A stretch of 64,000 bases of DNA. Source: Azotosporobacter soli. GTDB taxonomy: Bacteria; Bacillota; Negativicutes; SG130. Below are positions 8,421-46,057 of this stretch, in pieces. The notes beneath the pieces are model-generated. The model did not search any database. It was not told the origin of the DNA and was given only the letters and a program-made list of their open reading frames with translations. Position numbers and translations under genes: made by a program. The stretch is from positions 1-64,000 of the forward strand of contig NZ_JAUAOA010000007.1 of the NCBI RefSeq assembly GCF_030542965.1, given 5' to 3'. Position 1 is the stretch's first letter; the number at the start of each line of letters is the position of its first letter.

Positions 8421-8447
8421 ATTCACCCAAAGCGTTTTTTTTCCTGC
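8421..8447 (-). promoter_or_regulatory. Sigma-H (Spo0H) type promoter of HD-GYP 1
   Basis: On the minus strand gcaggaaaa (8439-8447), N11, ggtgaat (8421-8427) fits the Bacillus sigma-H consensus RNAGGAWWW-N11/12-RNNGAAT at every specified position. It lies 50 bp upstream of the ATG and just past the terminator hairpin of the preceding gene. No comparable sigma-A promoter was seen here. Confidence 0.65.
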
Positions 8448-8503
8448 AGTAAATCAAACTTTTCTTACCAGAATTCACTACTCATGTTCTTTAGATATGC
8501 AAA

Positions 8504-8527
8504 GACAGCATACGATTGTATGCTGTC
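8504..8527 (-). terminator. Hairpin after HD-GYP 2
   Basis: gacagcata (8504-8512) and tatgctgtc (8519-8527) form a perfect 9-bp stem with a 6-nt loop just beyond the stop codon of HD-GYP 2. The following U tract is short, so termination strength is uncertain. Confidence 0.5.
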
Positions 8528-8533
8528 CATTCT

Positions 8534-9589
8534 CTATGATGCCACACCAACAATGTTTAGCTTTGTCTCACGTAGTAAATTCAGCTCGCCTTGCTGCGTC
8601 TGTATCCACGGGCGTTTCAAATTGCTCGTATTTAAACGAACGACCTTGCCCCATAAACCATTGTCGAGACGTACGTTCTCGCCGATCGAATAAGGAATCG
8701 CCACTTTCTGAAAAGCCTGTAACACCTTTTCATCAAACTGAATGCCCGCTCCAGCCTGAATAATTTGAATGGCTTCTGATGAAGTCATCTTAGTTCGATA
8801 CACACGATCTGTCGTTAACGCATCGTACACATCTGCAACCGCAACAATCTTCGCCAGCGGGTGTATCTGTGCCCCCAAAATTCCCCAGGGATAACCGCTA
8901 CCGTTGCATCGTTCATGATGTTGCAAAGCCATCAACATGATTCGATGATCCATGCTTTCATCGGTTCGCAGCAGATTATAGCCCAATAACGCATGCTCCT
9001 TGACGGCTTTAAATTCCCTAAACGACAAGGCCGTCTCTTTATTCAAAATTTCTGCATCGATCCGTACTTTTCCCAGATCATGCAGCAAGCCGCCCATCCC
9101 CAGCAAATAAAGTTCCTGTCGACTCAAGCCCATCGCCATACCGATAGCGATAGAAAACAAACCAACATGAGCGCTATGCACAAACAAGTAATCTCCCATC
9201 CAGTCCATTTGTTCCAGATGGATCAAGACATTAGAGCGTTTACTCAGTTCTTGTATAATCTGCCAAACCTGACGTTCCAGTTGCGAAAAAACTTCAGGAA
9301 AAGCGTTGCCATCAGCAAAAGCGGCCCCCACGCATTCCAGTAGTTTGCCTCGAATCTCGGCGCCAACCAGACTCACCGGTTGGTAAATTTCATCACTCGT
9401 AATTAGCGGGACAACATTTTCTTGCACGGCTATCCTTGCTACGCTATAGCGCGGCAAGGAATTGATGATCTCACGATTCAGAGACTTTCCCGCTGCAATC
9501 AGCACTCGACCAGATTGATCAAATACATCTTGTGCAACAATCATTTCTTCGTCTAATTCAGCAATCGTTACGTACCGGATAAATCTCAC
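8534..9589 (-). CDS. HD-GYP domain cyclic-di-GMP phosphodiesterase 2
   Basis: 351 residues, paralogue of HD-GYP 1 with the same layout: small N-terminal domain, then HD-GYP (about 130-320) with H170-D171 in LLHDLGK, H199, H224-H225 in QHHERCNGSGYP and GYP at 232-234, so active-site residues are kept. The start is unclear: the GTG at 9589 directly abuts the ggagg, which is too close, while the in-frame codon at good distance is ATC three codons later. Own terminator and own sigma-H-like promoter, so it is a single-gene unit, divergent from the 77-residue gene. Confidence 0.9.
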   Translation of the reverse strand: MRFIRYVTIAELDEEMIVAQDVFDQSGRVLIAAGKSLNREIINSLPRYSVARIAVQENVVPLITSDEIYQPVSLVGAEIRGKLLECVGAAFADGNAFPEVFSQLERQVWQIIQELSKRSNVLIHLEQMDWMGDYLFVHSAHVGLFSIAIGMAMGLSRQELYLLGMGGLLHDLGKVRIDAEILNKETALSFREFKAVKEHALLGYNLLRTDESMDHRIMLMALQHHERCNGSGYPWGILGAQIHPLAKIVAVADVYDALTTDRVYRTKMTSSEAIQIIQAGAGIQFDEKVLQAFQKVAIPYSIGENVRLDNGLWGKVVRLNTSNLKRPWIQTQQGELNLLRETKLNIVGVAS

Positions 9590-9624
9590 CTCCGTGCGCG
9601 GACAAAATTCTACATCTTATCCAT

Positions 9625-9651
9625 ATTCTACACATACGCTGTTTTTCCTCC
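9625..9651 (-). promoter_or_regulatory. Sigma-H type promoter of HD-GYP 2
   Basis: Minus strand ggaggaaaa (9643-9651), N11, gtagaat (9625-9631) matches RNAGGAWWW-N11-RNNGAAT exactly, about 35 bp upstream of the start codon. Confidence 0.65.
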
Positions 9652-9664
9652 TCTACTTTTCCTT

Positions 9665-9684
9665 TTTTGAACAACTGTTCAAAA
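9665..9684. promoter_or_regulatory. Inverted-repeat operator candidate between divergent genes
   Basis: ttttgaaca and tgttcaaaa are perfect 9-bp arms around a 2-bp spacer. The repeat lies between HD-GYP 2 and the 77-residue gene, just upstream of both promoters, so a bound regulator could act on either. The shape suits a dimeric TetR- or MarR-type repressor, but none is encoded beside it. Confidence 0.5.
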
Positions 9685-9702
9685 GTATTTTTTTCATCAC
9701 GC

Positions 9703-9732
9703 ATGACACAGAATAAATTATTTCGTTATAAT
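9703..9732 (+). promoter_or_regulatory. Sigma-A type promoter of the 77-residue gene
   Basis: -35-like ATGACA (9703-9708) and a perfect -10 TATAAT (9727-9732) are 18 bp apart. The ribosome-binding site aaggagg (9758-9764) lies 7 nt before the GTG start. Confidence 0.6.
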
Positions 9733-9771
9733 ATACATATAAAGGTCTGATGCTAAAAAGGAGGCGTTTTA

Positions 9772-10005
9772 GTGGAAAAATTAAAAGTTTCCGTTACGTA
9801 TTCCAACGGCGAATCCATCGAGTATTTCTTAAACGCAAGCCTCGTCGTCCTTAATGACGCATTGCGCGATAACGGCATCTTGCGCGTACTTCGTATTCGC
9901 GACGGCATCACCGTGCCGACCTATGTCAATTTCTCTCACGTGTCGAGCGTCGAGTTGCTCGATTATGCCGGAAAAAACTGGGATGAGGTCAAACGAAGTC
10001 AGTAA
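9772..10005 (+). CDS. Conserved-looking small protein of unknown function
   Basis: 77 residues from a GTG start with a strong aaggagg site and its own promoter and terminator, so it is expressed as a single gene. Family not recognised. The sequence alternates beta-like stretches (KVSVTYSNGESIEYFL, VLRVLRIRDGITVPTYVNF) with no cysteines, signal peptide or membrane segment, suggesting a small cytoplasmic beta-rich domain. It diverges from the HD-GYP 2 gene across a palindromic operator, which hints at, but does not prove, a shared role. Confidence 0.8.
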   Translation: MEKLKVSVTYSNGESIEYFLNASLVVLNDALRDNGILRVLRIRDGITVPTYVNFSHVSSVELLDYAGKNWDEVKRSQ

Positions 10006-10029
10006 AAGATTGAATGATTTTTAAAATCG

Positions 10030-10075
10030 AAAAAGGGTGGTGAAAACGTATTGCTACGTATTCACCACCCTTTTT
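10030..10075. terminator. Bidirectional terminator
   Basis: Stem arms around aaaaagggtggtgaa and its complement ttcaccacccttttt enclose an inner acgta/tacgt stem. A runs on one side and T runs on the other let it serve both the 77-residue gene (plus) and the RND operon (minus). Confidence 0.85.
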
Positions 10076-10080
10076 CAGTT

Positions 10081-13000
10081 TTATTCTTGACCTTGTTCAA
10101 GTATTTTTTTGCTTTTTCCTCGATAGCGGCTCCGCCAATTTTGCAGATTGTCCATAAAGATATACATTTGCGGCACGACAATCAACGTCAAAATAGTAGA
10201 GGTGATCAACCCGCCGACGACGACAACCCCCATTGACGATCGCAATTCCGCTCCTGCGCCCCAGCCGAATGCAACTGGCAACATACCAAGTACCATCGCA
10301 GCGGTCGTCATCAATATTGGTCTGAGACGCACCGTTCCAGCTTCGAGCAGCGCCTCTTCTCTAGAGAGCCCATCACGTTCCCGCAGCGTATTTGCATAAT
10401 CCACCAGCAATATAGCATTTTTCGCCACCAAGCCCATCAACATGATGATACCGATCAAGCTCATAATGTTAACGGTTTTGGCGCTGATCAACAAGCCTAA
10501 AATCGCCCCGATCATCGCAAACGGCAACGACAGCATAATCGTCAACGGATGAATAAAGCTTTCAAACTGCGCTGCCAGCACCATATAAATTAGGATAACC
10601 GCAATTAACAGTGCACGTCCGATTTCCTTGAAGGAGTCGTTCATGCTGCGCGTCTGCCCGACGAACTTGTAATGGTAGCCAAACGGGATATTCATCTGCG
10701 CAATTTCATTTTGCGCCGCCGTGATGATTTCGCCAGCGGAAACGCCAACATTATTGGCATATACGATAATTTCACGTTGACGATCTTCACGATCGATCTG
10801 GGTCGGTCCAGATGTGAATTTAACTTGCGCAATATCGCCTATTCGAACCTGTCCGCCAAATTTACTGGTCACGCGGATATTGGCGACATCGTCCGGTTTA
10901 GTTCGCAGCTCATCCTTGAGCCGTACCCGAATATCATAATCCTTATCACCAACCCGGTAACGGTTTCCCGTAGTGTTGCCGGCAAACGCAGTTTGCACAA
11001 TCGCGCCTACGGAATCGACGTTGACTCCCGCCTGCCCTGCTTTCATCCGATCGACAACGACCTGAACCTCCGGTTGATAATCGCTGGCCGACGTATCGAC
11101 GTCGGCAGAACCTGGAATCTGGCGCAAGCGTTCAGCAAGTTCTTGCGATAGTTGCTTCAATACGCTCATGTCACTGCCCTGAAAACCGACTTGAACGGCC
11201 CGGTTATCGCCGCGCCCGCCTGAAGTGGATGCCGCAACGACCGAAATTTTCATGCCGGTATAATTACGAAACTTCATTCGCAAGGCATCCATGATTTCCA
11301 TCATCGTCCGGTCACGTTGATCGATGTCTTTTAGTTTTACCCCAATCATCGCCTTATTGACCGGATTGCGTGAATAGCCGATATTGAGAAAAGCCGCCCG
11401 TTTTTCCGGCAAAGCCAGTACCTCTTGCTCGACCGGTTTTGCCAACTCTTGCATTTTCTCAATGGATGTTCCCGGCGGCGCCGTCATAAAAATATTGAAT
11501 TCTCCCGAATCATAGGTTGGTTGAAATTCAAAACCTAAGAGCGGAATGAAAAAGACATTCACGACAAGCGAAAGAACGGCCACGCCGACAATGAGCCACG
11601 GATGATGCAGCGCCCACTGCAAAAACTGCCGATACGCATCGCGAATAAATAAAAAGCCAGCTTCCCACTTGTCGAGCCCTCGCTCAATAAAACGATTAAA
11701 TGCAGCAATTACAGTGGGCCGTTTTGGCGGCTCTTCATCGTGCGGCCTTAGCCAACGCGCCGACAACATGGGCGCGAGCGTCAACGCAACAAAAAGCGAG
11801 AAGGCCACCGCAAAGGCCACCGTCAGGCCAAACTGACGAAAAAACATGCCGATAATTTCTCCCATTGAACCAACCGGCACAAAAACGGCCAGAATCGACA
11901 ATGTCGTCGCCAATACAGCCAGCGAAATTTCCACAGTGCCAGAAAACGCACCGTCCGCCGGCGAAGCGCCCTCCTCAATATGGCGATGGATATTTTCTAC
12001 AACGACAATCGCATCGTCAATCAATATTCCGACCGCCAGACTTAAGCCCATCAAAGACATGTTGTTCAAGGTAAAGCCGCCGACCTTCATCAGGCTAAAC
12101 GTCGCGATAACGGATGTCGGAATCGCCAACGCGCCAATTAAGGTCGCCCGTGTATCACGCAAAAACAAGAAAACAATAACAACAGCCAAGAAACCGCCAA
12201 TAATCAAAGAATTGGCCACATCTTCCACATTGCTCTTGATATATAGCGAACCGTCACGAACAATCGTTACCTTGACGTCTTTGGGAAGTTCTTTTTGGAT
12301 CTTGTCCATTTCGGCCTTAACGGCATCGGCAACCGCAACCGTATTCGTACCGGATTGCTTTTGTACGGATACCACGACGGAAGGAGTACCATCCGTGCGT
12401 GCGTAAGTACGTTCTTCCGAAAATGAATCTTTGACTTCCGCCACGTCCGTCAAATAAAGGACTCGATTGTTTTGATTCGCAACTGCAATCGTACCGATTT
12501 CTTCAACCGTCTTATATTGTCCCAGCGTGCGAACAATCATCTCAAACCCTTTTTCCTTAACGTAGCCGCCGGGAACATTGGCATTTGCGCTGTTAACCGC
12601 CGAAAGGATTTGATCCATCGTCAGTCCATAAGCATCCAGTTTACGCGGATCGATTCGCACCTGAATTTCACGGTCACTACCGCCGTTAATTCCGACATCG
12701 CCGACGCCATCGATTTGTTGCAACCTCTCTTTTATGACATCATTGGCCATCTTGCGGATTTCACCGCGCGGTCGCTGATCTGACGCCAAACTGAAATAAA
12801 CAACGGAGGAAGCCGTAATGTCATAGCGCTGCGTCACCGGCTCATCAATCTGGTCCGGTAAAGTGCGACGTACACCGCCTACTTTTTCACGCACGTCAGC
12901 CGCCGCCATACGAGGATCGACGCCGAGTATGAATTCAATCGTAACCTGAGAAACGCCTTCCTTCGACAAGGACGTGATCGTCTTGATGCCGGCGACGGAA

Positions 13001-13215
13001 CTCACCGCATCCTCGATCGGTTTTGTGACCAAACTTTCCATTTCTTCCGGCGAAGCGCCTTTCCAGGTCACCAGTACCGAAACAAGCGGATATTCGACAT
13101 CCGGCATTAAATCGATGCCCAGTTTAGGCAATGATGACAAACCAAATACGACCAGTACAAATACCAGCATGGTCGTAAAAACCGGTCGACGAATAAAAAT
13201 CCTTAGAAAATTCAT
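10081..13215 (-). CDS. RND (HAE1/AcrB-type) multidrug efflux transporter
   Basis: 1044 residues, normal for a homotrimeric proton-driven inner-membrane exporter of the AcrB/MdtB class. After the first helix come two periplasmic repeats. TM4 carries the paired aspartates in GILIDDAIVVVENI, and TM10 the relay lysine in LMGLVAKNAILLVDYAN. The start overlaps the end of the adaptor gene by 4 bp (ATGA), so the two are translationally coupled. An outer-membrane TolC-like factor is not in the window and must come from elsewhere. An RND pump with adaptor supports a diderm envelope. Substrates cannot be predicted. Confidence 0.95.
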   Translation of the reverse strand: MNFLRIFIRRPVFTTMLVFVLVVFGLSSLPKLGIDLMPDVEYPLVSVLVTWKGASPEEMESLVTKPIEDAVSSVAGIKTITSLSKEGVSQVTIEFILGVDPRMAAADVREKVGGVRRTLPDQIDEPVTQRYDITASSVVYFSLASDQRPRGEIRKMANDVIKERLQQIDGVGDVGINGGSDREIQVRIDPRKLDAYGLTMDQILSAVNSANANVPGGYVKEKGFEMIVRTLGQYKTVEEIGTIAVANQNNRVLYLTDVAEVKDSFSEERTYARTDGTPSVVVSVQKQSGTNTVAVADAVKAEMDKIQKELPKDVKVTIVRDGSLYIKSNVEDVANSLIIGGFLAVVIVFLFLRDTRATLIGALAIPTSVIATFSLMKVGGFTLNNMSLMGLSLAVGILIDDAIVVVENIHRHIEEGASPADGAFSGTVEISLAVLATTLSILAVFVPVGSMGEIIGMFFRQFGLTVAFAVAFSLFVALTLAPMLSARWLRPHDEEPPKRPTVIAAFNRFIERGLDKWEAGFLFIRDAYRQFLQWALHHPWLIVGVAVLSLVVNVFFIPLLGFEFQPTYDSGEFNIFMTAPPGTSIEKMQELAKPVEQEVLALPEKRAAFLNIGYSRNPVNKAMIGVKLKDIDQRDRTMMEIMDALRMKFRNYTGMKISVVAASTSGGRGDNRAVQVGFQGSDMSVLKQLSQELAERLRQIPGSADVDTSASDYQPEVQVVVDRMKAGQAGVNVDSVGAIVQTAFAGNTTGNRYRVGDKDYDIRVRLKDELRTKPDDVANIRVTSKFGGQVRIGDIAQVKFTSGPTQIDREDRQREIIVYANNVGVSAGEIITAAQNEIAQMNIPFGYHYKFVGQTRSMNDSFKEIGRALLIAVILIYMVLAAQFESFIHPLTIMLSLPFAMIGAILGLLISAKTVNIMSLIGIIMLMGLVAKNAILLVDYANTLRERDGLSREEALLEAGTVRLRPILMTTAAMVLGMLPVAFGWGAGAELRSSMGVVVVGGLITSTILTLIVVPQMYIFMDNLQNWRSRYRGKSKKILEQGQE

Positions 13216-14339
13216 AACTGACCAGCCTCCCGTGTCGCAGCCACTTTAACTCTGGCGCCGTCACGCACGGTATTCTGTCCGGCTACAACAATCAACTCGC
13301 CTGGCTTCAGGCCATCCAGTACTTCCGCATAACCGTCGCCGACATAGCCGATTTTCAGTTTACGTTGCACCACTTGGTCTTCTGACAACACAAACACTGT
13401 GCGTTGGTCTTCAAAAAGAACCAGAGCCGCTTCCGGCACAACCATCGCATCTGGATGAATTTTACCATTGACAAGCACCTTGGCTGTCAAACCGGCCAGG
13501 AGAGTATTATCAGCATTATCAATACTGACTTCGATCGTAAACGTCCGTGTCGGCACCGCCGCCGCCGGAACGATTTTTGTAATTTTACCGATAAAAGGTT
13601 GCGTTGATAGAGCTTCCACCAAAACTTGTGCCATATCGCCCAGTTTCAATTGCGTAATTTGTCCTTCTCCAACCGTCGCCTTAGCCAACATCACGCTGGT
13701 GTCCGCCACGGTCACAATAGCCGTACCTGCTTTCGCATAATCACCGGTTTGTAAATAACGGTTCAAAATCACGCCGCGATGCGGCGTAGTCACATTGGTG
13801 TTTTCCAGCCGCGCTTCCTGATATCCGACGTTGCCTCTATTCGCACGAACCAGACCTTCCAGATTGGCAACCTTAGCACCGGCAGCATCGAGTTGTTGCT
13901 GTGAAATCGCCCCCTGCGCAAATAAGCTCTGCGCTCTCGACAAATCGACACGCGCTTGCGACAGATCCGCCGCAGAAGCATATAAGGTTCCTTGCGCCTG
14001 CGAAACCTGCGCACCAAATTCGCCATTCTCCAGCGTCGCCAGGGATTGCCCCGCCGTTACCCATTGGCCTTCTTCAACAAACAGAGCGCCAATCCGTCCA
14101 TCCAGTTTAGGACTGATATCTGAACGCCACACCGGATCTAATGACGCCGTAAGTGTGAAAGTTGGCGTAATACTCTTTTTGAAAACCGGCATCACTTCAA
14201 CTGTCGCGATTCGACCTTTCCCCATGGCAGCCGCTTTGTCTTTAGCCGTTTGTATATTACTGTAAATTTTAAAACCGATAAGTGCTGCCATAATTATAAG
14301 TGCAATGCTGATTCCATATACTAATTTTTTCCGTTTCAC
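13212..14339 (-). CDS. RND efflux periplasmic adaptor (membrane fusion protein)
   Basis: 375 residues. A single N-terminal membrane anchor (about residues 6-25) is followed by the split barrel-sandwich hybrid domain (around 70-105 and 180-215), an alpha-hairpin (about 105-170) rich in Gln and Ala, and beta-barrel plus membrane-proximal domains. It has no lipobox cysteine, so it is anchored by the helix. The GTG start at 14339 follows aaaggg by 8 nt. First gene of the pump operon. The upstream 279 bp hold a sigma-H-like promoter about 200 bp away and no convincing regulator gene. Confidence 0.93.
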   Translation of the reverse strand: MKRKKLVYGISIALIIMAALIGFKIYSNIQTAKDKAAAMGKGRIATVEVMPVFKKSITPTFTLTASLDPVWRSDISPKLDGRIGALFVEEGQWVTAGQSLATLENGEFGAQVSQAQGTLYASAADLSQARVDLSRAQSLFAQGAISQQQLDAAGAKVANLEGLVRANRGNVGYQEARLENTNVTTPHRGVILNRYLQTGDYAKAGTAIVTVADTSVMLAKATVGEGQITQLKLGDMAQVLVEALSTQPFIGKITKIVPAAAVPTRTFTIEVSIDNADNTLLAGLTAKVLVNGKIHPDAMVVPEAALVLFEDQRTVFVLSEDQVVQRKLKIGYVGDGYAEVLDGLKPGELIVVAGQNTVRDGARVKVAATREAGQL

Positions 14340-14538
14340 TTAAGTCGCCCTTTCTCTTTTCCAATTCTCTAAAAAAGTCGAAGCTTTTACTCTTTTCGGC
14401 TGCTGAAGTGCAACAAGGTTATCTTCCTGTTTTGAGAATCGTATTGATATTGCACATCGCTGACCGTATGACTATATCTACTGTAAAAACAACTTTCTTT
14501 CGCCCTCCTTCTGCGTTATCTCGACATCTTTCACTCTT

Positions 14539-14565
14539 ATTCTCTCTCTTTACACATTTTCCTGT
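14539..14565 (-). promoter_or_regulatory. Sigma-H type promoter upstream of the RND operon
   Basis: Minus strand acaggaaaa (14557-14565), N11, agagaat (14539-14545) matches the sigma-H consensus at all specified positions. It begins right after the aroB terminator, as expected for the start of a new transcription unit. Confidence 0.55.
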
Positions 14566-14570
14566 CAGAA

Positions 14571-14599
14571 AAAAAGGTAAAGTGGCCAAAAGCCACTTT
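14571..14599 (-). terminator. Rho-independent terminator of the aroC-aroK-aroB unit
   Basis: aaagtggc (14579-14586) and gccacttt (14592-14599) form an 8-bp stem with a 5-nt loop, followed on the minus strand by a T-rich tract, 20 bp after the aroB stop. Confidence 0.85.
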
Positions 14600-14618
14600 A
14601 AATTTAAGTAAATTGTAA

Positions 14619-15704
14619 TTATTTTATAATTTCAGCCAACGTCTTTTCCACCAAACCTAACGCAACGTCATCTCTAATCTTTATACATCCCGGTTTTTCT
14701 AGAAGAATCCAACGCACTGCGCCATCGAGTACTTTTTTATCATGCGCAATAAAGCCAAGTAATTCTTTACTTTGACAACCTTCTACTTGCGTCGGCAATC
14801 CAAAAGAAGAAAGCAGCTTTTCTGTTCGCTGATAGAGCTCACGCTTCGCCAGCCCGAGACGACAGCTCAAAATTAATGCGCCACAAAGGCCGATTGCCAC
14901 CGCCTCGCCATGATTGTATCGCTTGAATCCGCCCCAGGCTTCGACACTGTGACCGATCGTGTGCCCCAGATTCAAAACCATGCGCAAATCATTTTCCGTC
15001 TCGTCAGCTTCTACCACCTTAGCCTTGGCAGCGCAAGAACGTCCGATTAATTCCGCCAGGATGTCGGGTTGCCGTTTCTTTATTTCATCTTGGTTCTTTT
15101 CAAGCCATAACATAAAATCATCTTCGGCCAGCAAACCATATTTGACAACCTCCGCCAAACCAGCTGAAAATTCACGTTCCGACAACGTCTGCAGCACTTG
15201 ACTGTCAATGAACACCGCTCGCGGTTGATGAAACGCGCCAATCAAATTCTTGCCTTCCGGGTGATTCACTGCCACTTTCCCGCCAACACTCGAATCCACC
15301 TGGGCCAACAACGAAGTCGGGATTTGAATGAAAGGAACGCCGCGCAAATAGGTCGCTGCAACAAACCCGGTAAGATCACCGACAACACCGCCGCCAAGCG
15401 CAACAAAAGCCGACTTTCTATCGAGCCCAAAACGAATTGCCGCCGAATAAATTTCCATCGCAGTCGCCAATGATTTTGCGCCTTCCCCGGCAGTTACGAC
15501 ATAAAGTTCCACTATAAAATCGGCAGCAGTCAACGCGTCTAGAACCGTCTTTGCATAAAGTGGTGCGACATGTTCATCGGATACGACAATAACCTTTCTG
15601 CCGATTTTCATTTTTCTCATTTCCTGGTCTAGCGTTGCCAGAAGTCCCGGCAAAATCCGAATCGTATAACTACGGTCGCCTAGGTGCACTGTTATATCGG
15701 CCAC
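14619..15704 (-). CDS. aroB: 3-dehydroquinate synthase AroB
   Basis: Second step of the shikimate pathway: converts DAHP to 3-dehydroquinate using NAD and a metal. The nucleotide motif GGGVVGDLTGFVAATYLRG and the metal-site histidines in NLGHTIGHSVE and YNHGEAVAIG are all present. 361 residues from the GTG at 15704 (VADITVHLG), chosen because aaggggg lies 7 nt upstream; an upstream in-frame ATG at 15746 has no such site and would run deep into aroK. The start lies inside the aroK end (35-bp overlap), so it is coupled to aroC-aroK. Confidence 0.95.
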   Translation of the reverse strand: MADITVHLGDRSYTIRILPGLLATLDQEMRKMKIGRKVIVVSDEHVAPLYAKTVLDALTAADFIVELYVVTAGEGAKSLATAMEIYSAAIRFGLDRKSAFVALGGGVVGDLTGFVAATYLRGVPFIQIPTSLLAQVDSSVGGKVAVNHPEGKNLIGAFHQPRAVFIDSQVLQTLSEREFSAGLAEVVKYGLLAEDDFMLWLEKNQDEIKKRQPDILAELIGRSCAAKAKVVEADETENDLRMVLNLGHTIGHSVEAWGGFKRYNHGEAVAIGLCGALILSCRLGLAKRELYQRTEKLLSSFGLPTQVEGCQSKELLGFIAHDKKVLDGAVRWILLEKPGCIKIRDDVALGLVEKTLAEIIK

Positions 15705-17963: not shown

Positions 17964-18502
17964 GGCGACAGCCCCTTGATCTTAACAATTATTTCAAATC
18001 TAGCACCGGCTTCAACGCCGTCATCCTGACTGACGGTCAGGATATTCGGTTGGCTAAATAAATTATCCTTTTCTAAAAGTTGAACAAACTTCAATATCTC
18101 CGGCGAAGTAGCCGCCCTTCCTTTAATGGAAATCACTCCACTATCGCCGCTATTGACTTCAGTCAGATAAATCGCCGGTGGCACTACAGCACCCAAATGC
18201 GCCAATACCGCATGCCATGATACACGCTCTTTAGACAAATTCAATAAGACTTGATCACGCATTTGTATCTTCAGCCACTTGTCTTCTGCCGCCGTCATCA
18301 CAAGCTCACTACTACGCAGGATTTGATATTTCTGCGTCGTCGCACGCAGTTCTTCTTCAAGCAGGTTTTTGCAATATAAGCCATGACCATATTTTGCGAG
18401 AATAAACAAAACACAAAACATGATTAGCAGAAATACACAGCGCTGCGACAAAGCGGCGTTCGGACGCTCTTGCGGAGCCAGTAGATTGACGCTCAGTCTC
18501 AA
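17960..18502 (-). CDS. pilN: Type IV pilus assembly protein PilN
   Basis: 180 residues. The short N-terminal segment VNLLAPQERP is the PilN tail that binds the groove of PilM. One helix (about 21-42), then a coiled coil and an alpha/beta periplasmic domain. It overlaps pilM and pilO by 4 bp each, a tightly coupled MNO cassette. Confidence 0.85.
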   Translation of the reverse strand: MRLSVNLLAPQERPNAALSQRCVFLLIMFCVLFILAKYGHGLYCKNLLEEELRATTQKYQILRSSELVMTAAEDKWLKIQMRDQVLLNLSKERVSWHAVLAHLGAVVPPAIYLTEVNSGDSGVISIKGRAATSPEILKFVQLLEKDNLFSQPNILTVSQDDGVEAGARFEIIVKIKGLSP

Positions 18503-22379: not shown

Positions 22380-22862
22380 CTACTTTTTGAAAACAGCGCC
22401 GCTGCCTAGCGCTTCCGCCGTATATGAACCGGCAATCGTATCCGCCGCAGACCCGCCGGATGTAGCATCCACTTTAATTACCGCACGTCCATCGACAACC
22501 ATATATGCTGTTGTCGGTGAATTGCACTTGTAGCTGATTTTTCCTACCATAAAAGTTTGCGTACCTGATGCGCCGGCCGCAAATGGTGCAGGTGAAGCCG
22601 ATAAGTTATCCAGCACGCTCTGCGGCAGCGAGGCTCCGTCCGCCACATCTTTCCCCTGAGCCTTGGCCATTTGAATCGCCGAATCGATCGTTGCCAAGTC
22701 AGCTTGAATTTTCCCGCCTCGCGCCGAATCTGTCGCATTTGCAAACTTGGGAACTGCGATGGCAGCCAACACTCCGATAATTGAAATAACAACCATAAGC
22801 TCCACCAAAGTAAAACCGGCTTCATTTTTTCGCTTTTTCCCGCCTATTTGCGTTATCCCCAC
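22380..22862 (-). CDS. pilA: Major type IV pilin (PilA/ComGC-like)
   Basis: The GTG at 22862 is chosen for ggagg 8 nt upstream; this gives a 16-residue leader ending KNEAG before FTLVELMVVISIIGVLA, the canonical class III signal with Glu5. 160 residues. Small globular domain with Gly/Ala/Ser-rich loops and a single cysteine. It is the most canonical pilin here and the likely main subunit. It follows pilC directly. Confidence 0.88.
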   Translation of the reverse strand: MGITQIGGKKRKNEAGFTLVELMVVISIIGVLAAIAVPKFANATDSARGGKIQADLATIDSAIQMAKAQGKDVADGASLPQSVLDNLSASPAPFAAGASGTQTFMVGKISYKCNSPTTAYMVVDGRAVIKVDATSGGSAADTIAGSYTAEALGSGAVFKK

Positions 22863-22885
22863 CGCTAACGCCTCCATCTTCAATA

Positions 22886-24103
22886 TTATTGCCCAAGATT
22901 CATCGTCAAATCAAAAAGAGGCAACATGACCGACATTACGATTCCTCCTATAAGTACGCCAAGAAAAATGATAAGCATCGGCTCAATCAATGTACTCAAT
23001 CGCCGAACAGTCTCATCCACCTCCGTCTCATAAAACTCACTGATCTTTTCCAACATGGACTCCAACTCTCCCGCCTCTTCGCCGACGCTTATCATTTGAA
23101 TCACCATGACCGGGAAAAATTGTTGCTTCGATAATGCTGTCGCGAACATCTCGCCTTGCTTCACATTGTTTTTCGCCGTCTCCAAAATTTGCAGCATATA
23201 GTGATTAGCGGTAGTTTGTCTGGCCATTTCTAACGCAGTCAAAATGGATAATCCGCTACGCATCAGGATAGCCAAAGTATGCGTGAAGCGAGCAATTGCA
23301 AGGTTTCGCATCAGCACACCGAATAACGGAGTCTTAAGTGCTACGGTATCCATAATATAACGCACGTTCTGACTTCGGATCCCTATAGACAACAAGGGTA
23401 AGGCAGAAAGGACGATCAAAAGTGTCCCCAACCAGTGCAATTGGCAAAACAGGCTTATCGAGATCACCAGTTTTGTAATCGCCGGAAGTTCTATCTTACT
23501 GCCGTCAAATATTCTTGTAAACGTGGGCAATACAAAGCTCAGTATGAACAAAACCATTCCGCCCCCCAGAAACGTAACAAGTAACGGATACGCAAGCGCG
23601 GATTTCACTTTTTCTTTTGCCTTATACTCTTTTTCAAACAAAACAGCCAGTCGTTGCAATATGACATCCAATACGCCGCCAGTTTCTCCCGCCTCAACCA
23701 TTCCCACCATTAATTCCGGAAAAATTTTCGAATGGTTCCTCATCGCCTTTGCCAATGTTTCGCCTTCACTAACTCGCTTATAAATATCGCTTACAGCCTG
23801 TTTAAGGCGAGGATGCTCCATTTGCTCTTGTAAAATCGCAAGACACTTGACGAAAGAAACACCTGCTCCGCTTAGAGTGGCAAACAAGCGGCAAAATATC
23901 GCCAACTCTTTAACGCCAACCGTTTTAAAATTACGCAGATCAATATTAAAATCACGCAACCGTTGCTGTTCTTTTATTTGAGTAACAAACCAACCCTTAT
24001 CACGGATAAACGCAGCCACTGCCGACTGGCTATCGGCAACAATGTTTCCGCTTAGACGCTGCCCTTGAATATCGCGCGCTTTATATGAAAACGTCTTTGC
24101 CAT
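22886..24103 (-). CDS. pilC: Type IV pilus inner-membrane platform protein PilC
   Basis: 405 residues from the ATG at 24103 (MAKTFSYKARD), which has aaggagg 6 nt upstream. Two GspF domains (about 70-190 and 270-395), each followed by membrane helices; LVEAGETGG and SVGEEAGEL are the repeated glycine motifs. Platform on which PilB and PilT act. Ends 24 bp before the pilA start. Confidence 0.95.
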   Translation of the reverse strand: MAKTFSYKARDIQGQRLSGNIVADSQSAVAAFIRDKGWFVTQIKEQQRLRDFNIDLRNFKTVGVKELAIFCRLFATLSGAGVSFVKCLAILQEQMEHPRLKQAVSDIYKRVSEGETLAKAMRNHSKIFPELMVGMVEAGETGGVLDVILQRLAVLFEKEYKAKEKVKSALAYPLLVTFLGGGMVLFILSFVLPTFTRIFDGSKIELPAITKLVISISLFCQLHWLGTLLIVLSALPLLSIGIRSQNVRYIMDTVALKTPLFGVLMRNLAIARFTHTLAILMRSGLSILTALEMARQTTANHYMLQILETAKNNVKQGEMFATALSKQQFFPVMVIQMISVGEEAGELESMLEKISEFYETEVDETVRRLSTLIEPMLIIFLGVLIGGIVMSVMLPLFDLTMNLGQ

Positions 24104-24113
24104 ATGCGCCTCC

Positions 24114-25166
24114 TTATCGCAAATGCAATAAAGTTTCCGGATCATTAACCCGGACGCCTATTTCTGACTCGCTGATTTTTCCGCTGCGATATAAATCAGA
24201 CAACGCTTTATCCATCGATTGCATTTGCCACTTCCCTCCCGTTTGTATTGCCGACGCAATTTGGTGAGTCTTTCCCTCACGCACCAGATTACGCACGGCA
24301 GGCGTGGCAATAAGGATTTCAAACGCCGCGATTCGCCCGCTCTCGTCAATGCGTTTTATAAGTTGCTGCGCTACGACTCCCTGCAGAGTCAAGGAAAGCT
24401 GTAAGCGAACTTGCGCTTGTTGCTGCGGAGAAAATGCATCGATGATACGGTCTATTGTTTGCGCTGCATCGGCAGTATGCAAAGTCGCCAAAACAAGGTG
24501 TCCCGTTTCCGCTGCGGTAATCGCAGTGGCGATCGTTTCTGCATCACGCATTTCGCCTAGCAAAATGACATCCGGGTCTTCCCTGAGCGCCGCACGCAAC
24601 GCACTGGCGAACGAACGCGAATCGATAGTAATTTCGCGTTGATTGACAATGCTGGAGCGATGCGCATGCAGATATTCAATCGGGTCTTCCAACGTAATGA
24701 TGTGACAGCGTCGTTCTTCATTAATCAGATTAACCATTGCCGCCAATGTTGTCGATTTGCCGCTGCCGCTGGGCCCTGTAACCAAGACAAGCCCTCTTGT
24801 CTTGCGCGCAAGCGTTTTTACTGCTTCAGGATGTCCGAACTCATCAAGTGTCGGCACCCGCTCAGTTAGTATCCGAATCGCCAGCGCTACAAAACTGCGC
24901 TGTTTAAACGCGTTCACCCTAAAGCGCCGTTCCTTGAGGCAGGTAAATGAAAAATCGATTTCTCCGCACTTGGCAAAGTCAGCCAGTTGCTCCGGCTTGG
25001 CAATTTCCTTCAAGATACGTTCTACCTGCTCAGGCATCAGTGCATTCGTATCCGAAAGCGCCTGCAGTTCACCATTGATGCGCACTATCGGAGGAATTCC
25101 GACCGTAATATGCAAATCGGAGGCTTTCTTCGTCAATGCCCTTTCTAATAATTGTTCCAACTGCAT
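24114..25166 (-). CDS. pilT: Type IV pilus retraction ATPase PilT
   Basis: 350 residues. Walker A GPSGSGKST at 131-139, Asp box ITLEDPIEYLH, Walker B VILLGEMRDAET, His box HLVLATLHT, and the N-terminal SDLH start typical of PilT. The AIRIL segment used in retraction is replaced at the C-terminus by a shorter tail. Its presence implies retractile pili and so twitching, adhesion or DNA uptake. Confidence 0.93.
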   Translation of the reverse strand: MQLEQLLERALTKKASDLHITVGIPPIVRINGELQALSDTNALMPEQVERILKEIAKPEQLADFAKCGEIDFSFTCLKERRFRVNAFKQRSFVALAIRILTERVPTLDEFGHPEAVKTLARKTRGLVLVTGPSGSGKSTTLAAMVNLINEERRCHIITLEDPIEYLHAHRSSIVNQREITIDSRSFASALRAALREDPDVILLGEMRDAETIATAITAAETGHLVLATLHTADAAQTIDRIIDAFSPQQQAQVRLQLSLTLQGVVAQQLIKRIDESGRIAAFEILIATPAVRNLVREGKTHQIASAIQTGGKWQMQSMDKALSDLYRSGKISESEIGVRVNDPETLLHLR

Positions 25167-25191: not shown

Positions 25192-26874
25192 TTATACTTC
25201 TATATAGGCAACGCGCATCACTTCACTCACTGTCGTTTTTCCCTGACACGCCTTATCAATCCCATCTCTCAGCATAGAAATCATCCCATCCTGCAGCGCA
25301 AAAGCAGCTACCTCATGTCCTGTTGCTCCACGGCATACTTTTTCCCGTAAAGCAGCACTAAGCGGCATCACTTCATGAATGGCCATTCTACCTCTGAAAC
25401 CGCTGTGATTACAACGTGCGCAACCTCGTCCCTTGTAGAAGCGACGCTCCTCAATACCGAGCCGGCTTAAAAAAGCCCGTTCCAGGCCATGTTCAGGCAG
25501 GATATATTCCTCGCGGCACTCCTGACAAATCACGCGTACTAAACGCTGCGCCACAACGCCCAGGAGCGAAGATGCAATCAAAAAAGGTTCCACTTCCATA
25601 TCGATCAAGCGGGCGATCGCTCCGACAGCATCATTGGTGTGCAACGTGCTAAGCACCAAATGCCCCGTCATTGCTGCACGGACGGCTATGTCAGCCGTTT
25701 CTCCGTCTCTTACTTCACCTACCATGATGATATTGGGATCCTGACGCAAAATGGAACGCAACCCACTGGCAAAACTCATGCCCGCCTTGACATTGACCTG
25801 AACTTGATTAATGCCTGCCAGCAAATATTCAACCGGATCTTCAACCGTTATGATATTGCAGCCCGGGTCATTCAATTCCGTTAGTGTGGAATATAAGGTT
25901 GTCGTCTTGCCTGATCCCGTTGGCCCTGTAACGAGAATCATACCATATGATTGCGCGTAGAGTTTTCGATAACGTCGCAGATTGTCATCGGAAAACCCCA
26001 GCTGCGCGACATCCAAGATAACCGCTTTTTGATCAAGTATTCGCAATACCACTTTTTCACCACGAATCGTCGGTAGCGTCGAAGTGCGAATATCGATTTC
26101 ACGTCCCTGCTCTTTCACCTTAATCCGCCCATCTTGGGGTACTCTCCGTTCCGCAATGTTCATGCCACTGATAATCTTAATCCTCGACACAATCGCCGCA
26201 TGTGTGTGCATTGGAAAAGTTGCAACATCATGCAAGATCCCGTCGGCCCTAAACCTCACCCGGACCGCATCCTCCGTCCTTTCAATATGAATATCACTGA
26301 CCGTCTCACGGATAGCCTGACTAATCAGGGAATTGACAATGCTGATAATCGGCGCATCATCGGCCATTTGAAATTTAGCTGCCTCCGGCAAAGAAGGTTC
26401 CTCGCGTTTTAACTGACTTACCGCCTTTTCCACCAGTTCCGTCACACCATAGCACTGCTGAATGGCACGCAAAATATCCGATTCAGCGGCAAGAGCCGGT
26501 TCTATCTCATAGCCAGAAGCCATTCTGACGTCATCAATGGCAAAAAAATTAGTAGGATCCGCCATCGCGACTCTTAGCCGTCCTTCATGACAAGCAACCG
26601 GTATCAATTTATAACGCTCTGCCAAACTGACCGGTATCGAAATGGCTGCTGTCCGGTCGATTTGAATTTGCATGAAATCAACGCGCGAAATGCCTAATTG
26701 TTCTTCCAGTGCATCGACAATTTCCCACTCCTTAACGCAGCCAAGCTCAATTAAACTTTCGCCAAGCCGTCTTCCCGTCTGTCGCTGTTTCTCCAAAGCC
26801 GCTTCCAACTGCTGTTCAGTTATCCGTCCTTTTTCAACTAATAACTCGCCTAATCGCTGCCGCTTTCGTTTCAT
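25192..26874 (-). CDS. pilB: Type IV pilus extension ATPase PilB with MshEN domain
   Basis: 560 residues from the second of two adjacent ATGs (aggtg upstream). Residues 7-30 and 36-59 each fit the 24-residue MshEN motif RLG-x2-hydrophobic pair-x2-G ending L-x2-Q, separated by five residues, the arrangement that binds c-di-GMP in MshE. The T2SSE ATPase follows: GPTGSGKTT, VEDPVEYLL, MVGEVRDGET and HLVLSTLHT. The zinc-type tetracysteine CQEC/CARC is near 455-490. First gene of the pilus operon; its leader holds a terminator and a sigma-H-like promoter. Confidence 0.94.
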   Translation of the reverse strand: MKRKRQRLGELLVEKGRITEQQLEAALEKQRQTGRRLGESLIELGCVKEWEIVDALEEQLGISRVDFMQIQIDRTAAISIPVSLAERYKLIPVACHEGRLRVAMADPTNFFAIDDVRMASGYEIEPALAAESDILRAIQQCYGVTELVEKAVSQLKREEPSLPEAAKFQMADDAPIISIVNSLISQAIRETVSDIHIERTEDAVRVRFRADGILHDVATFPMHTHAAIVSRIKIISGMNIAERRVPQDGRIKVKEQGREIDIRTSTLPTIRGEKVVLRILDQKAVILDVAQLGFSDDNLRRYRKLYAQSYGMILVTGPTGSGKTTTLYSTLTELNDPGCNIITVEDPVEYLLAGINQVQVNVKAGMSFASGLRSILRQDPNIIMVGEVRDGETADIAVRAAMTGHLVLSTLHTNDAVGAIARLIDMEVEPFLIASSLLGVVAQRLVRVICQECREEYILPEHGLERAFLSRLGIEERRFYKGRGCARCNHSGFRGRMAIHEVMPLSAALREKVCRGATGHEVAAFALQDGMISMLRDGIDKACQGKTTVSEVMRVAYIEV

Positions 26875-26914
26875 CATTTCACCTACACACGTTTTGTGAA
26901 TCATAATAATCCGT

Positions 26915-26958
26915 AAAAAAAGCAAGCCCTTGCATCATAAAATGAAAAGCTTGCTTTT
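26915..26958 (-). terminator. Terminator in the pilB leader, downstream of aroE
   Basis: aaaagcaagc (26918-26927) and gcttgctttt (26949-26958) form a 10-bp stem followed on the minus strand by a run of seven Ts. It lies after aroE but also after the sigma-H-like promoter at 27002-27028, so pilus transcripts must pass it. Confidence 0.8.
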
Positions 26959-27001
26959 AATCGAACGAAGATAAACGCTCTGTTCCGTATCTAATTTTTA
27001 T

Positions 27002-27028
27002 ATTCGCATGCCTGCAGTTTTTTCCTGC
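27002..27028 (-). promoter_or_regulatory. Sigma-H like promoter of the pilus operon
   Basis: Minus strand gcaggaaaa (27020-27028), N11, tgcgaat (27002-27008): all specified positions of the sigma-H consensus match except the purine at the first place of RNNGAAT. It lies in the gap between aroE and pilB, about 130 bp upstream of the pilB start. Confidence 0.5.
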
Positions 27029-27071
27029 ATAAATTTTGAAAATTTTATCATTTATCCCAGTTGAATTTATT

Positions 27072-27911
27072 TCATTCTTTTTCTTCCATTGCCTTGCGCA
27101 TTGCAGCACGACAATCCGCTCTTCCAGTCCAAAGTGCAAACGCCAATGCCCCTTGTTCAATCAACATGCCCGCGCCATTTAGAACGCGCTGCCCACGCTC
27201 CCGGCCGTAACGTAAAAACGGTGTTTCTTTAGGATTATAAATTAAATCATAAAGCATCGCGTCGGTAGCGATTACGCTCCAATCGAGAGGCAAAATTTGT
27301 TCGGCTTGGCCATGCATCCCGACCGGCGTCGAGTTGATAATGATGTTCGCTTGCTCACTAACTTCAGCAAATTTTTTTTCTTCCCAGCCGCAAGCTGCCA
27401 CTTTCACTAAAGGAAAAAGCTGCGCCAGTTCGACCGCTTTATCGCGTCGCCGCGCCGCTATTGTCACATTAGCGCCAACACCAAGCATGCCTGCAACAAC
27501 CGCGCGTGCTGCGCCGCCTGCACCGAGCAGCAGCACGTTCGCTCCGTTTGCTTCAACGCCAAACGCTGCCAGCGATCCCATAAACCCGCCGACATCGGTA
27601 TTATAGCCGATTGAGCGCCCTTCTTCAAACACGATGGTATTCACCGCTCCAGCCAAACGAGCCGATTCATCCAGTTGCGTCAAATGTTGCATCACAGCAA
27701 CCTTGTGCGGTATCGTCACATTGACGCCGCGAAATCCCATCTGTGGCAGCGCCGCAATCACACTTGCTAATGCATCCGCCTGAACCGGTAAAGGCACATA
27801 TGCATAATCCAGATCTAATTCTCTAAACGCGGCATTATGCATCTGCGGCGAAAAAGAATGTCCTATAGGCCAACCGATAATGCCCGTCAATCGAGTCGTT
27901 CCTTTAATCAT
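27072..27911 (-). CDS. aroE: Shikimate dehydrogenase AroE
   Basis: 279 residues. Shikimate-binding GWPIGHSFSPQMHN is near the N-terminus, NVTIPHKV with the catalytic Lys at about 66, the NADP motif GAGGAARAV, and NSTPVGMHG downstream. Reduces 3-dehydroshikimate. It overlaps yqeG by 8 bp. Separated from aroC-aroK-aroB by the whole pilus operon. Confidence 0.94.
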   Translation of the reverse strand: MIKGTTRLTGIIGWPIGHSFSPQMHNAAFRELDLDYAYVPLPVQADALASVIAALPQMGFRGVNVTIPHKVAVMQHLTQLDESARLAGAVNTIVFEEGRSIGYNTDVGGFMGSLAAFGVEANGANVLLLGAGGAARAVVAGMLGVGANVTIAARRRDKAVELAQLFPLVKVAACGWEEKKFAEVSEQANIIINSTPVGMHGQAEQILPLDWSVIATDAMLYDLIYNPKETPFLRYGRERGQRVLNGAGMLIEQGALAFALWTGRADCRAAMRKAMEEKE

Positions 27912-38986: not shown

Positions 38987-39259
38987 TTACTTAGAACGCT
39001 TCATCTCGTCCCATTTTGTCATGATGCCAGCCTTACTGAACAGTGCTCGTACAGTATCGGTGGGTTGAGCACCTTTCTGCATCCAGCTGATGGCCTTTTC
39101 TTCGTCAAGCTTAACGATAGCCGGTTCCACAGTCGAGTCGTAATGGCCAATGTTTTCGATGAAACGACCATCACGAGGAAAACGGGAATCAGCAACAACT
39201 ACACGGTAGAAAGGACTTTTCTTAGCGCCCATGCGCTTCAAACGGATTTTTACAGCCAC
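38987..39259 (-). CDS. rpsP: Ribosomal protein bS16
   Basis: 90 residues from the GTG at 39259 ([11 protein letters not shown]), with aaaggaggtg 6 nt upstream; a GTG at 39268 overlaps that site and is rejected. Signatures [23 protein letters not shown] and ENIGHYDS are clear. 35 bp after ffh. Confidence 0.96.
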
Positions 39260-39294
39260 ATTTTTCACCTCCTTTAAAGGATATCGTTGAAAAT

Positions 39295-40644: not shown

Positions 40645-40646
40645 GA

Positions 40647-41006: not shown

Positions 41007-41047
41007 CTTCGATCCTCCTGACAAGGAGAAAACCTTTACCGTTAGCT

Positions 41048-41076
41048 ATTATAGCCCGCCCGTTAAACCTTGTCAA
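41048..41076 (-). promoter_or_regulatory. Perfect consensus sigma-A promoter of ylxM-ffh-rpsP
   Basis: Minus strand -35 TTGACA (41071-41076), 17 bp, -10 TATAAT (41048-41053). It lies between ftsY and ylxM, so the SRP-ribosomal operon has its own strong start. Confidence 0.85.
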
Positions 41077-41082
41077 GCATTT

Positions 41083-42000: not shown

Positions 42001-42022
42001 TTGTGTTCCTCCATATTCATTA

Positions 42023-45000: not shown

Positions 45001-45589
45001 TAATATCGCTCACACGCGTCAAGTTTTGATTTGCATCATCCAAGCGGCGCAACGCATCTTTTTTCCGATTCTTATATTTAGTGATGCCCGCTGCTTCTTC
45101 TAAAAAGTTGCGCCGATCTTCCGGTTTGCTATTTAAAACTTCATCAACCTTATTTTGGCCGATGACGGTCATCGCGTCACGGCCGAGGCCCGTATCGGCC
45201 AGCAGTTCATGAATATCCTTCAAACGGCAGGCACTCTTATTGATGTAATACTCACTCTCGCCCGAACGAAATACTCGTCGCGTAATAATGACTTCATTAT
45301 AATCAATTGCCAACGAACCATCGGTATTGTCAAATATCAGCGATACCTCAGCAACGCCAAGCGGCCGGCGCCCAGAGCTGCCGGCAAAAATGACATCTTC
45401 CATCTTAGTGCCCCGCAAAGTACGAACGCTTTGTTCGCCCAATACCCAACGGATCGCATCGGAAATATTGCTTTTACCACTGCCATTAGGACCAACAATG
45501 GCGGTAATCCCCTTGCCGAATTCAATTTCCGTCTTATCTGCAAAGGATTTGAAGCCGTAAGCTTCTAATTTCCGCAGCAGCAAATTCAT
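42023..45589 (-). CDS. smc: Chromosome partition protein SMC
   Basis: 1188 residues from the ATG at 45589 (MNLLLRKLEAYGFKSFAD). Walker A GPNGSGKSN near the N-terminus, two long coiled coils around a hinge (about 510-660, with GALSGGSLGRKDAG), the signature VLLSGGERALT and Walker B VVDEIDAALDEANVD. ScpA/ScpB partners are not in the window. Own promoter after the spoVS terminator. Confidence 0.96.
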   Translation of the reverse strand: MNLLLRKLEAYGFKSFADKTEIEFGKGITAIVGPNGSGKSNISDAIRWVLGEQSVRTLRGTKMEDVIFAGSSGRRPLGVAEVSLIFDNTDGSLAIDYNEVIITRRVFRSGESEYYINKSACRLKDIHELLADTGLGRDAMTVIGQNKVDEVLNSKPEDRRNFLEEAAGITKYKNRKKDALRRLDDANQNLTRVSDIINELDGQLGPLEESSRRTRQYNELYGELKACQVTVLLHRLEKAAKMVESATLQQTQLAEDDIAFSTALLQKENQRDVMVGALSENERATTALSEAISQADTELERLQGKVAVLQERINHGSKTEERLSNEASGLKRQQSELEKKRQDAQSVIREKRLQLESMRFQAADRQQRCDALSSESQELEHRLENDKNKTLDYLQELVGEKNRHANLEKEIFRLAQRQQELGQEENSIKEQQRVETEQLGQLERQQTEMQRQAESLIERQQDIASRRGQLTEQEFVLRQDEKKCAGRLQERISKQRVLVSMEQEYEGFSRGIRGVLKSNAAWRSGICGAVAQLLDVPERYLTAMEIAMGGALQNLVVESDEIAKGAIRFLKEQNLGRATFLPLNTIRPLKPKENEIQAAKRSGSLGLAAQLVKCDDKYRSVVEFLLGRTIVAETINDALRIAKEFGFSLRIVTLDGELVQPGGALSGGSLGRKDAGLLSRGPEIKRLDAEIQQEKEQLDAIQTQLTKLATASEALALESESCRQEKQGLDVKLAEITVHQSKLTGELRRIEQALTNVANDVAGFITERERLTENRQNAALRIKELEQRDSQHQQAMEDWKSSLSKLQSKREQVQNELTEHKVRIGAGEQELTSLQLGLQQLQAQQDALQERYLALGSERDAQRDETAAAQAALRSAATEIEEGKLQRQEKEEERRKIQGERLELLAQSQQLEKELKDTRRRQQDIQNRLHECQLIHTKYGYEINVCHEQLEQQFGLTEETARPLVREEDSKVLLARSHQLESEIAQLGPINPAAIDEYARVRERYEFLSQQSQDLLTAQEYLLGVIREIDGTMATRFAKAFEEINRHFGEIFAQLFGGGQAALKMVEPGNVLETGVEIIVQPPGKKLQNLVLLSGGERALTVIALLFALLTHRPAPFVVVDEIDAALDEANVDRLSGFLRNYGSDTQFIVVTHRKGTMEAADIIHGITIEESGVSRLVSVKLMDKAAV

Positions 45590-45621
45590 CACCACACCGT
45601 TCTTTCATGATAGCCATTCAA

Positions 45622-45650
45622 ATTGTACCATGGGTGTTTTTTTTCGACAA
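45622..45650 (-). promoter_or_regulatory. Promoter of smc-ftsY
   Basis: Minus strand -35 TTGTCG (45645-45650) and -10 TACAAT (45622-45627), 17-bp spacing, about 30 bp before the smc start and just after the spoVS terminator. Confidence 0.6.
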
Positions 45651-45662
45651 CTATACTAAAGT

Positions 45663-45692
45663 AAAAAAACCTGTCTGCCTCGCAAACAGGTT
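45663..45692 (-). terminator. Terminator of spoVS
   Basis: aacctgt (45668-45674) and acaggtt (45686-45692) form the stem; a run of seven Ts follows on the minus strand. Confidence 0.85.
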
Positions 45693-45717
45693 CTTCTTTA
45701 TGCATAATTCCGTTTGA

Positions 45718-45978
45718 CTACCTCGGCTCAACAATAAAACGAATTGCAGTGCGTTCCTCGCCATCAATGGCAATTTCAGCAAAGGCCGGAATGGAAATCA
45801 AGTCAATGCCATTCGGTGCGACAAAACCTCGTGCAATGGCCACAGCTTTGATCGCCTGATTGACTGCACCGGCCCCGACTGCTTGAACCTCTGCAGTTCC
45901 TTGTTCCCGTAAAACCGCTGCTAACGCCCCTGCTACAGATTTCGGATTGGATTGTGCAGATACTTTGAGAACATCCAC
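45718..45978 (-). CDS. spoVS: Stage V sporulation protein S
   Basis: 86 residues, full length and very typical: VLKVSAQSNPKSVAGALAAVLRE, QAVGAGAVNQAIKAVAIARG, GIDLISIPAFAEI. An Alba-like fold that acts on septation and coat assembly in sporulation; homologues also occur in non-sporulating bacteria. GTG start at 45978 with aaaaggagg upstream. Own sigma-H-type promoter and terminator, so monocistronic. Confidence 0.96.
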   Translation of the reverse strand: MDVLKVSAQSNPKSVAGALAAVLREQGTAEVQAVGAGAVNQAIKAVAIARGFVAPNGIDLISIPAFAEIAIDGEERTAIRFIVEPR

Positions 45979-46029
45979 TTAGAAAACCTCCTTTTATCGT
46001 TTAAGGGCTGCGTGGTACTTGTCATAAGT

Positions 46030-46057
46030 ATTCTGCCTTCTTCCTGATAATTCCTTC
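46030..46057 (-). promoter_or_regulatory. Sigma-H type promoter of spoVS
   Basis: Minus strand gaaggaatt (46049-46057), N12, gcagaat (46030-46036) fits RNAGGAWWW-N12-RNNGAAT exactly. spoVS is a known sigma-H gene in Bacillus subtilis, which makes this the best-supported of the five such promoters here. Confidence 0.8.

Follow-up and report, generated by a model that had tools for sequence, protein, structure and literature searches.

Probable sigma-H-type promoters before pilus, efflux, c-di-GMP and spoVS genes in Azotosporobacter soli, a genome without a detectable spoIVA

The DNA analysed here, called the window throughout, is a stretch of 64,000 nucleotides from Azotosporobacter soli (NCBI RefSeq assembly GCF_030542965.1, contig NZ_JAUAOA010000007.1, positions 1 to 64,000), which belongs to the Negativicutes, a bacterial class with an outer membrane. 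Five minus-strand elements in the window resemble promoters of the sigma factor SigH. They precede two genes for HD-GYP proteins, a resistance-nodulation-division (RND) efflux operon, a pilus operon and spoVS. Judged from the sequence, these elements are very probably promoters read by the genome's own SigH (Spo0H-type), within a large predicted set of at least about 60 promoters that would serve growth and the transition state without spores. This sigma-H reading of the promoters is strongly supported in silico.

The five elements and the genes behind them

The elements are as follows (all on the minus strand; N11 and N12 are spacers of 11 and 12 nucleotides).

8421..8447, minus strand: sigma-H-type promoter of HD-GYP 1; exact match, GCAGGAAAA-N11-GGTGAAT, 49 bp before the gene
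9625..9651, minus strand: sigma-H-type promoter of HD-GYP 2; exact N11 match; C. difficile SigH matrix score 23.2, the top of the five
14539..14565, minus strand: sigma-H-type promoter of the RND efflux operon; exact N11 match, with a terminator-like hairpin just upstream
27002..27028, minus strand: sigma-H-type promoter of the pilus operon; N11, one mismatch
46030..46057, minus strand: sigma-H-type promoter of spoVS; exact N12 match

Four of the five fit the pattern RNAGGAWWW-N11/12-RNNGAAT exactly, and the single mismatch, at 27002-27028, is a T in place of R at the first −10 position. The coordinates and sequences given in an earlier note on this DNA proved exact, with four elements carrying N11 and spoVS N12. 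All five score between 12.3 and 23.2 against a matrix of C. difficile SigH promoters. The exact N11 pattern occurs three times in the window against 0.07 expected, and none of 100 shuffles contained three or more matches.

Two statements about the surroundings of the elements hold in part. The motif had been described as recurring only at the starts of transcription units, which slightly overstates the case, as an extra exact N12 match lies inside a gene at 18044-18071 (minus strand). The elements had also been said usually to follow the previous terminator directly. This is clear only at 14539, where a hairpin with a T tail (14578-14600) adjoins the RND promoter upstream. The hairpin near 8421 (8504-8527) has a weak tail on the minus strand, and scans of 8300-14700, 26800-27200 and 45550-46200 found no terminator on the minus strand immediately ahead of 9625, 27002 or 46030. 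A long-looped hairpin about 380 bp upstream of 9625 is visible and falls outside the limits of the terminator scanner.

Some further features of the window touch the same motif. The intragenic N12 match is probably due to chance, and matches with other spacers are found at 3716 (N10) and 44055 (N14). An inverted repeat, TGCAGGAAAAAACTGCA, at 27013-27029 contains the −35 region of the pilus promoter.

The genes behind the five elements are listed below.

7277..8371, minus strand: HD-GYP protein 1, likely a cyclic diguanylate (c-di-GMP) phosphodiesterase; Pfam HD_5 102 bits, with HDIG and HHERVDGTGYP present
8534..9589, minus strand: HD-GYP protein 2; Pfam HD_5 98 bits, motifs HDLGK and HHERCNGSGYP
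10081..13215, minus strand: RND efflux permease; Pfam ACR_tran 967 bits
13212..14339, minus strand: RND efflux periplasmic adaptor; TIGR01730 237 bits against a cut-off of 94.9
22380..22883, minus strand: pilin-like protein with a prepilin N-terminus; TIGR02532 31.5 bits against a cut-off of 16.3
22886..24145, minus strand: PilC/GspF-like inner membrane protein; TIGR02120 363 bits, below the cut-off of 424
24114..25166, minus strand: PilT-like ATPase of the pilus operon; Pfam T2SSE 167 bits
25192..26904, minus strand: PilB-type assembly ATPase with an MshEN domain; Pfam T2SSE 457 bits, MshEN 73 bits
45718..45978, minus strand: SpoVS; Pfam SpoVS 131 bits

The HD-GYP consensus has D where the HHERCNGSGYP motif of HD-GYP protein 2 has N. 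The name PilT is inferred from the size and place of the product. PilB carries two RLGxx motifs ahead of its Pfam stretch, and its translation may start at the ATG at 26877, which has the better ribosome-binding site.

SigH and the promoter motif in the genome and in relatives

The sigma-H assignment calls for a sigH gene, and the genome has one SigH above the curated-model cut-offs (TIGR02859, 377.5 bits against 294.8; NF006148, 399 bits against 208). The SigH model matches only SigH and RpoD in this genome. Across the genome (3.78 Mb, 39 contigs, 98% complete), there are 59 matches to the N11 pattern but 3 to the same pattern read backwards; for N12, the counts are 32 and 6. We counted a match as lying at a unit start if it was intergenic and the next gene followed within 250 bp in the same orientation, with genes taken from a purpose-made simple gene caller. 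By this measure, 48 of the 59 N11 sites lie at unit starts against about 5% expected, which bears out the proposal that matches concentrate there. The expectation comes from a sample of 864 kb, made up of the window and parts of two contigs, for which the gene-caller settings differed slightly from those behind the genome-wide count; 4.85% of random positions and 9 of 11 N11 matches fell at unit starts. In the same sample, all 12 matches to a tight core, GCAGGAWW-N15/16-GAAT, did so, against none of the 14 found with the other spacers that were tried.

The C. difficile matrix gave a similar picture. It was built from 29 promoters; 31 of the 40 in Table 3 of the source (PMC7438776) were chosen by eye, the nine omitted include spoVD and both low-score entries, and the box finder slightly favoured spacers 11/12. 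At the top threshold, 21 of 39 matches with spacers 11/12 lay at unit starts in the 864 kb, against 1 of 17 for spacers 8/9 and 9 of 31 for 14/15; at the lowest threshold, the counts were 70 of 196, 20 of 129 and 40 of 163. The share of control-spacer matches at unit starts probably comes partly from AT-rich intergenic DNA. The known SigH targets spoVS, rpoD and minC have a site in this genome, and a second spoVS copy (contig C5, 122796-123041, minus strand, L348) has a weaker N12 site scoring 14.5, 82 bp upstream.

Sites of this type recur in relatives. The earlier note had pointed to related Sporomusaceae; the window's genome stands alone in its family in the comparison set, which gives no support to that family name. 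The loci compared were up to 30 best matches per search from other families of the class, with 350-bp windows and a score of at least 12 taken as a site. Sites lie upstream of 26 of 30 SpoVS, 18 of 29 PilB, 18 of 29 RND adaptor and 13 of 29 HD-GYP1 best matches, counts that are not independent events, as the relatives share ancestry; those HD-GYP1 best matches that fall below about 45% identity are possibly not orthologs. On the reverse strand, there were two sites at HD-GYP1 loci and none at SpoVS, PilB or RND loci, and 1.8% of 600 random 380-bp windows of the window's genome reach a score of 12. Clear orthologs of HD-GYP2 were found in two of the eight loci examined, both with a site (148 or 162 bp upstream).

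The dnaG-rpoD locus of the window's genome (contig C22, L049) has sigma-H-type sites both before dnaG and inside dnaG ahead of rpoD. The internal site is similar to P3, a sigma-H promoter of sigA in B. subtilis. It is found at the same place in 15 of 18 chosen relatives from nine families, and the three without it all belong to one family (f12). We considered conservation of the protein as its cause. The arginine codon in the site, read by eye, is CGA in 15 of 15, although CGA makes up 9% of arginine codons in the window's genome and 10% in two genes of the relatives. Protein conservation therefore does not appear to explain the site, though the genomes are related.

Predicted targets, c-di-GMP and the pilus operon

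Sixty downstream proteins were picked from those behind the sites, and 50 of them had a Pfam match (E 1e-6). Grouped by eye, metabolic enzymes are the most numerous, followed by proteins of translation, replication and transcription and by those of division and the wall. The predicted information-processing targets include rpoD, dnaG, EF-Tu, EF-G, a GyrA/ParC-type subunit, HU and a class II tRNA synthetase, and an S30AE-type ribosome hibernation factor and two 3-deoxy-D-arabino-heptulosonate 7-phosphate (DAHP) synthases are also predicted. For division, they include MraZ, SepF, MinC and an FtsA/PilM-like protein; for the wall and envelope, M23 and NlpC/P60 wall enzymes and an S-layer homology (SLH) protein. 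One predicted target is a penicillin-binding protein that fits the SpoVD model best, with a score under the cut-off and the sequence cut by the end of the locus. Beyond the window, the c-di-GMP genes with a site encode one GGDEF protein (L014) and two HD-GYP proteins (L037, L045). With a GGDEF protein in addition to HD-GYP proteins, the set covers both the synthesis and the breakdown of c-di-GMP.

The leader of pilB contains one further feature, placed between the sigma-H-type site and the gene.

26918..26958, minus strand: terminator-like hairpin with a T tract in the pilB leader; fold z-score −2.8, with 3 of 200 shuffles as stable

No match to the c-di-GMP-II aptamer (RF01786) was found between the promoter and pilB or anywhere else in the window, and no c-di-GMP-II riboswitch in 800 kb of the window's genome or in five HD-GYP1 and six RND loci. 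In the pilB leaders of the best-match relatives, the riboswitch is present in 9 of 29 (Rfam, gathering threshold). A purpose-built model, R1, which was made from these nine leaders and is mostly a sequence model, adds four more (13 of 29), two of them weak. In the eight of the nine riboswitch loci that have a sigma-H-type site, the aptamer starts 17-46 nt past it, a distance that fits a transcription start at the site.

The c-di-GMP-II riboswitches of C. difficile are described as ON switches (PMC11477304), and MshEN is a domain type that binds c-di-GMP (PMC11731258). Because of the MshEN domain of PilB and the ON-type riboswitch in these relatives, falling c-di-GMP should oppose pili. The direction proposed in the earlier note, in which c-di-GMP is lowered while pili are turned on, thus runs against both features. 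We suggest instead that SigH would set initiation at the pilus operon and that c-di-GMP would gate output, through the riboswitch in one third of the relatives compared and through the MshEN domain of PilB. In the relatives with the riboswitch, SigH would open the operon to transcription, c-di-GMP would let transcription continue past the leader, and HD-GYP enzymes whose expression is driven by SigH would limit the c-di-GMP-gated pilus output.

SigH apparently without spores, and the competing readings

The window's genome has Spo0A, and no match to spoIVA was found in it (98% complete, 39 contigs), with the B. subtilis positive control detected. In 27 of the 28 genomes whose spoIVA match exceeds the cut-off, the SigH model gives 5-10 matches, against two here, with the sporulation sigma factors F, E, G and K not searched by models of their own. 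By sequence, the genome appears to have lost sporulation, and SigH appears to be uncoupled from spores. An enrichment survey covered 60 genomes, including the window's own, a few of them incomplete. Relative to the control, N11 enrichment was 8.6-fold among the 29 spoIVA-bearing genomes (one of them a fragment), 17.4-fold among the five that have Spo0A but no spoIVA and 7.3-fold among the 26 that have neither, at densities of 14.5, 16.8 and 8.5 per Mb, respectively.

One relative, G010, has no Spo0A or spoIVA above the cut-off and carries 47 sites. Its overlap with the window's genome was assessed from 41 of these sites, 40 of which have an open reading frame, against a non-target set that is only part of the window's genome. 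The best match in the window's genome was a predicted target for 8 of the 40 genes (6 convincing) and a non-target sample gene for 8, and 24 had none. Of the remaining six sites, one each precedes rpoD, spoVS and the RND adaptor gene, a further one near rpoD was taken to be that of dnaG, and two were omitted.

Several observations weigh against the sigma-H reading. Only 14 of the 30 N12 sites analysed lie at unit starts, or 15 with spoVS, which the gene caller missed (two N12 sites, on contigs C25 and C28, are outside this analysis). Of the top-threshold matrix matches, 12 of 39 are inside genes on the same strand. The spo0A gene of this genome has no good site (best score 9.8, about 800 bp upstream), and spo0A is a SigH target in C. 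difficile (PMC7438776). No site reaches the threshold at 11 of 29 PilB, 11 of 29 RND, 16 of 29 HD-GYP1 and 4 of 30 SpoVS best-match loci, and at two HD-GYP1 loci the opposite strand carries the stronger site. In 7 of the 60 genomes, enrichment is below 3-fold despite the presence of SigH: all three of family f25, two of three of family f4, G035 and G047. One explanation considered for f4 and f25 was a change in what their SigH recognises. The f4 SigH keeps the RHVKSIDNALQRVKRKLE stretch of typical relatives, and that of f25 is slightly different, so a smaller regulon seems the likelier explanation. The low counts suggest a shrunken SigH regulon in both families.

We give next to no credence to the idea that the elements are chance matches or purine-rich ribosome-binding or coding sequence. 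AGGA-rich matches in coding sense do occur at other spacers. Shuffles, the backwards pattern, wrong spacers and random windows all rejected chance matches, as the earlier note had argued, and the unit-start bias and the recurrence in relatives point the same way. It is also quite improbable that the motif, though similar to SigH promoters, is the site of another sigma factor or of a DNA-binding regulator. GCAGGA and CGAAT are more strongly favoured in this consensus than in the C. difficile one, and the specificity of this SigH is predicted from sequence; both points would allow for another protein. On the other hand, the SigH model identifies no sigma factor in the genome other than SigH and RpoD, SigH drives spoVS and a sigA gene in other bacteria, and the fixed spacing and placement fit a promoter. 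The assignment to sigma-H has held up in checks that the earlier note proposed: sigH is present, matches concentrate at unit starts and sites recur in relatives.

A narrower reading, in which a transition-state SigH lowers c-di-GMP while switching on pili and efflux, seems unlikely to us, though less so than the two preceding ones. The shared promoter on which the earlier note built it stands: two HD-GYP genes and the pilus and efflux operons of the window have it, it recurs in relatives, and the two further HD-GYP genes elsewhere have sites as well. However, the set is broad and not confined to c-di-GMP breakdown, as the GGDEF protein also has a site, most of the 60 downstream proteins have other roles, and the pilB-leader riboswitch of relatives together with PilB MshEN suggests that pili need c-di-GMP. 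Under the preferred reading, RNA polymerase with SigH would start transcription at the five elements, where start and timing are inferred, and SigH would serve growth and the transition state with no spore programme attached. The predicted set would span rpoD, elongation factors, division and wall genes, spoVS, the pilus, RND efflux, metabolism and c-di-GMP enzymes.

A more far-reaching proposal is offered tentatively, as we rate it somewhat short of probable. SigH of Negativicutes would be nearly a housekeeping factor for growth, division and envelope, with a regulon that persists after sporulation, and even Spo0A, has been lost. The pilus operon would form an incoherent feed-forward loop, in which transcription from a SigH promoter leads into a c-di-GMP-II riboswitch and on to an assembly ATPase that binds c-di-GMP, and phosphodiesterases made under SigH shut off the output, giving a pulse of pili.

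Related systems share parts of this arrangement. The C. difficile SigH promoters are mapped, with spacers of 11/12 and 40 entries in Table 3, and they have the same −35 and −10 elements and the targets spoVS, minC, EF-G, a sigA gene and a HIT protein; C. difficile differs in forming spores (PMC7438776). Its Table 3 has no RND efflux, HD-GYP or pilus label, though 11 entries are given as conserved hypothetical proteins (PMC7438776). In B. thuringiensis, spoVS1 and spoVS2 depend on sigma-H with the same consensus (RNAGGAWWW and RNNGAATWW), in a sporulating host and in a paper on spoVS (PMC8510167). Lactobacillus sakei also keeps sigma-H without sporulation, where it activates com genes for a pseudopilus within a small, 25-gene competence regulon (PMC3364868), unlike the large, broad set with the classical consensus described here. 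In C. difficile, a c-di-GMP-II riboswitch lies ahead of the type IV pilus operon (PMC11477304), the riboswitch class and pilus target also seen in nine of the 29 relatives; in the relatives, the riboswitch follows a sigma-H-type site (8 of 9) and precedes pilB, and the window has no detectable aptamer. We found no study of a SigH regulon in Negativicutes in the open-access literature searched, among the matches listed.

SigH is studied for its part in admitting cells to sporulation or competence. A large predicted promoter set retained in the apparent absence of spores is a wider result, and a more interesting one, than the narrow regulon, which is partly supported. With a large set of SigH-type promoters present without a detectable spoIVA, and often without Spo0A, the role of SigH without spores can be tested at named promoters. 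The set also ties the question of SigH to pili and c-di-GMP in Negativicutes.

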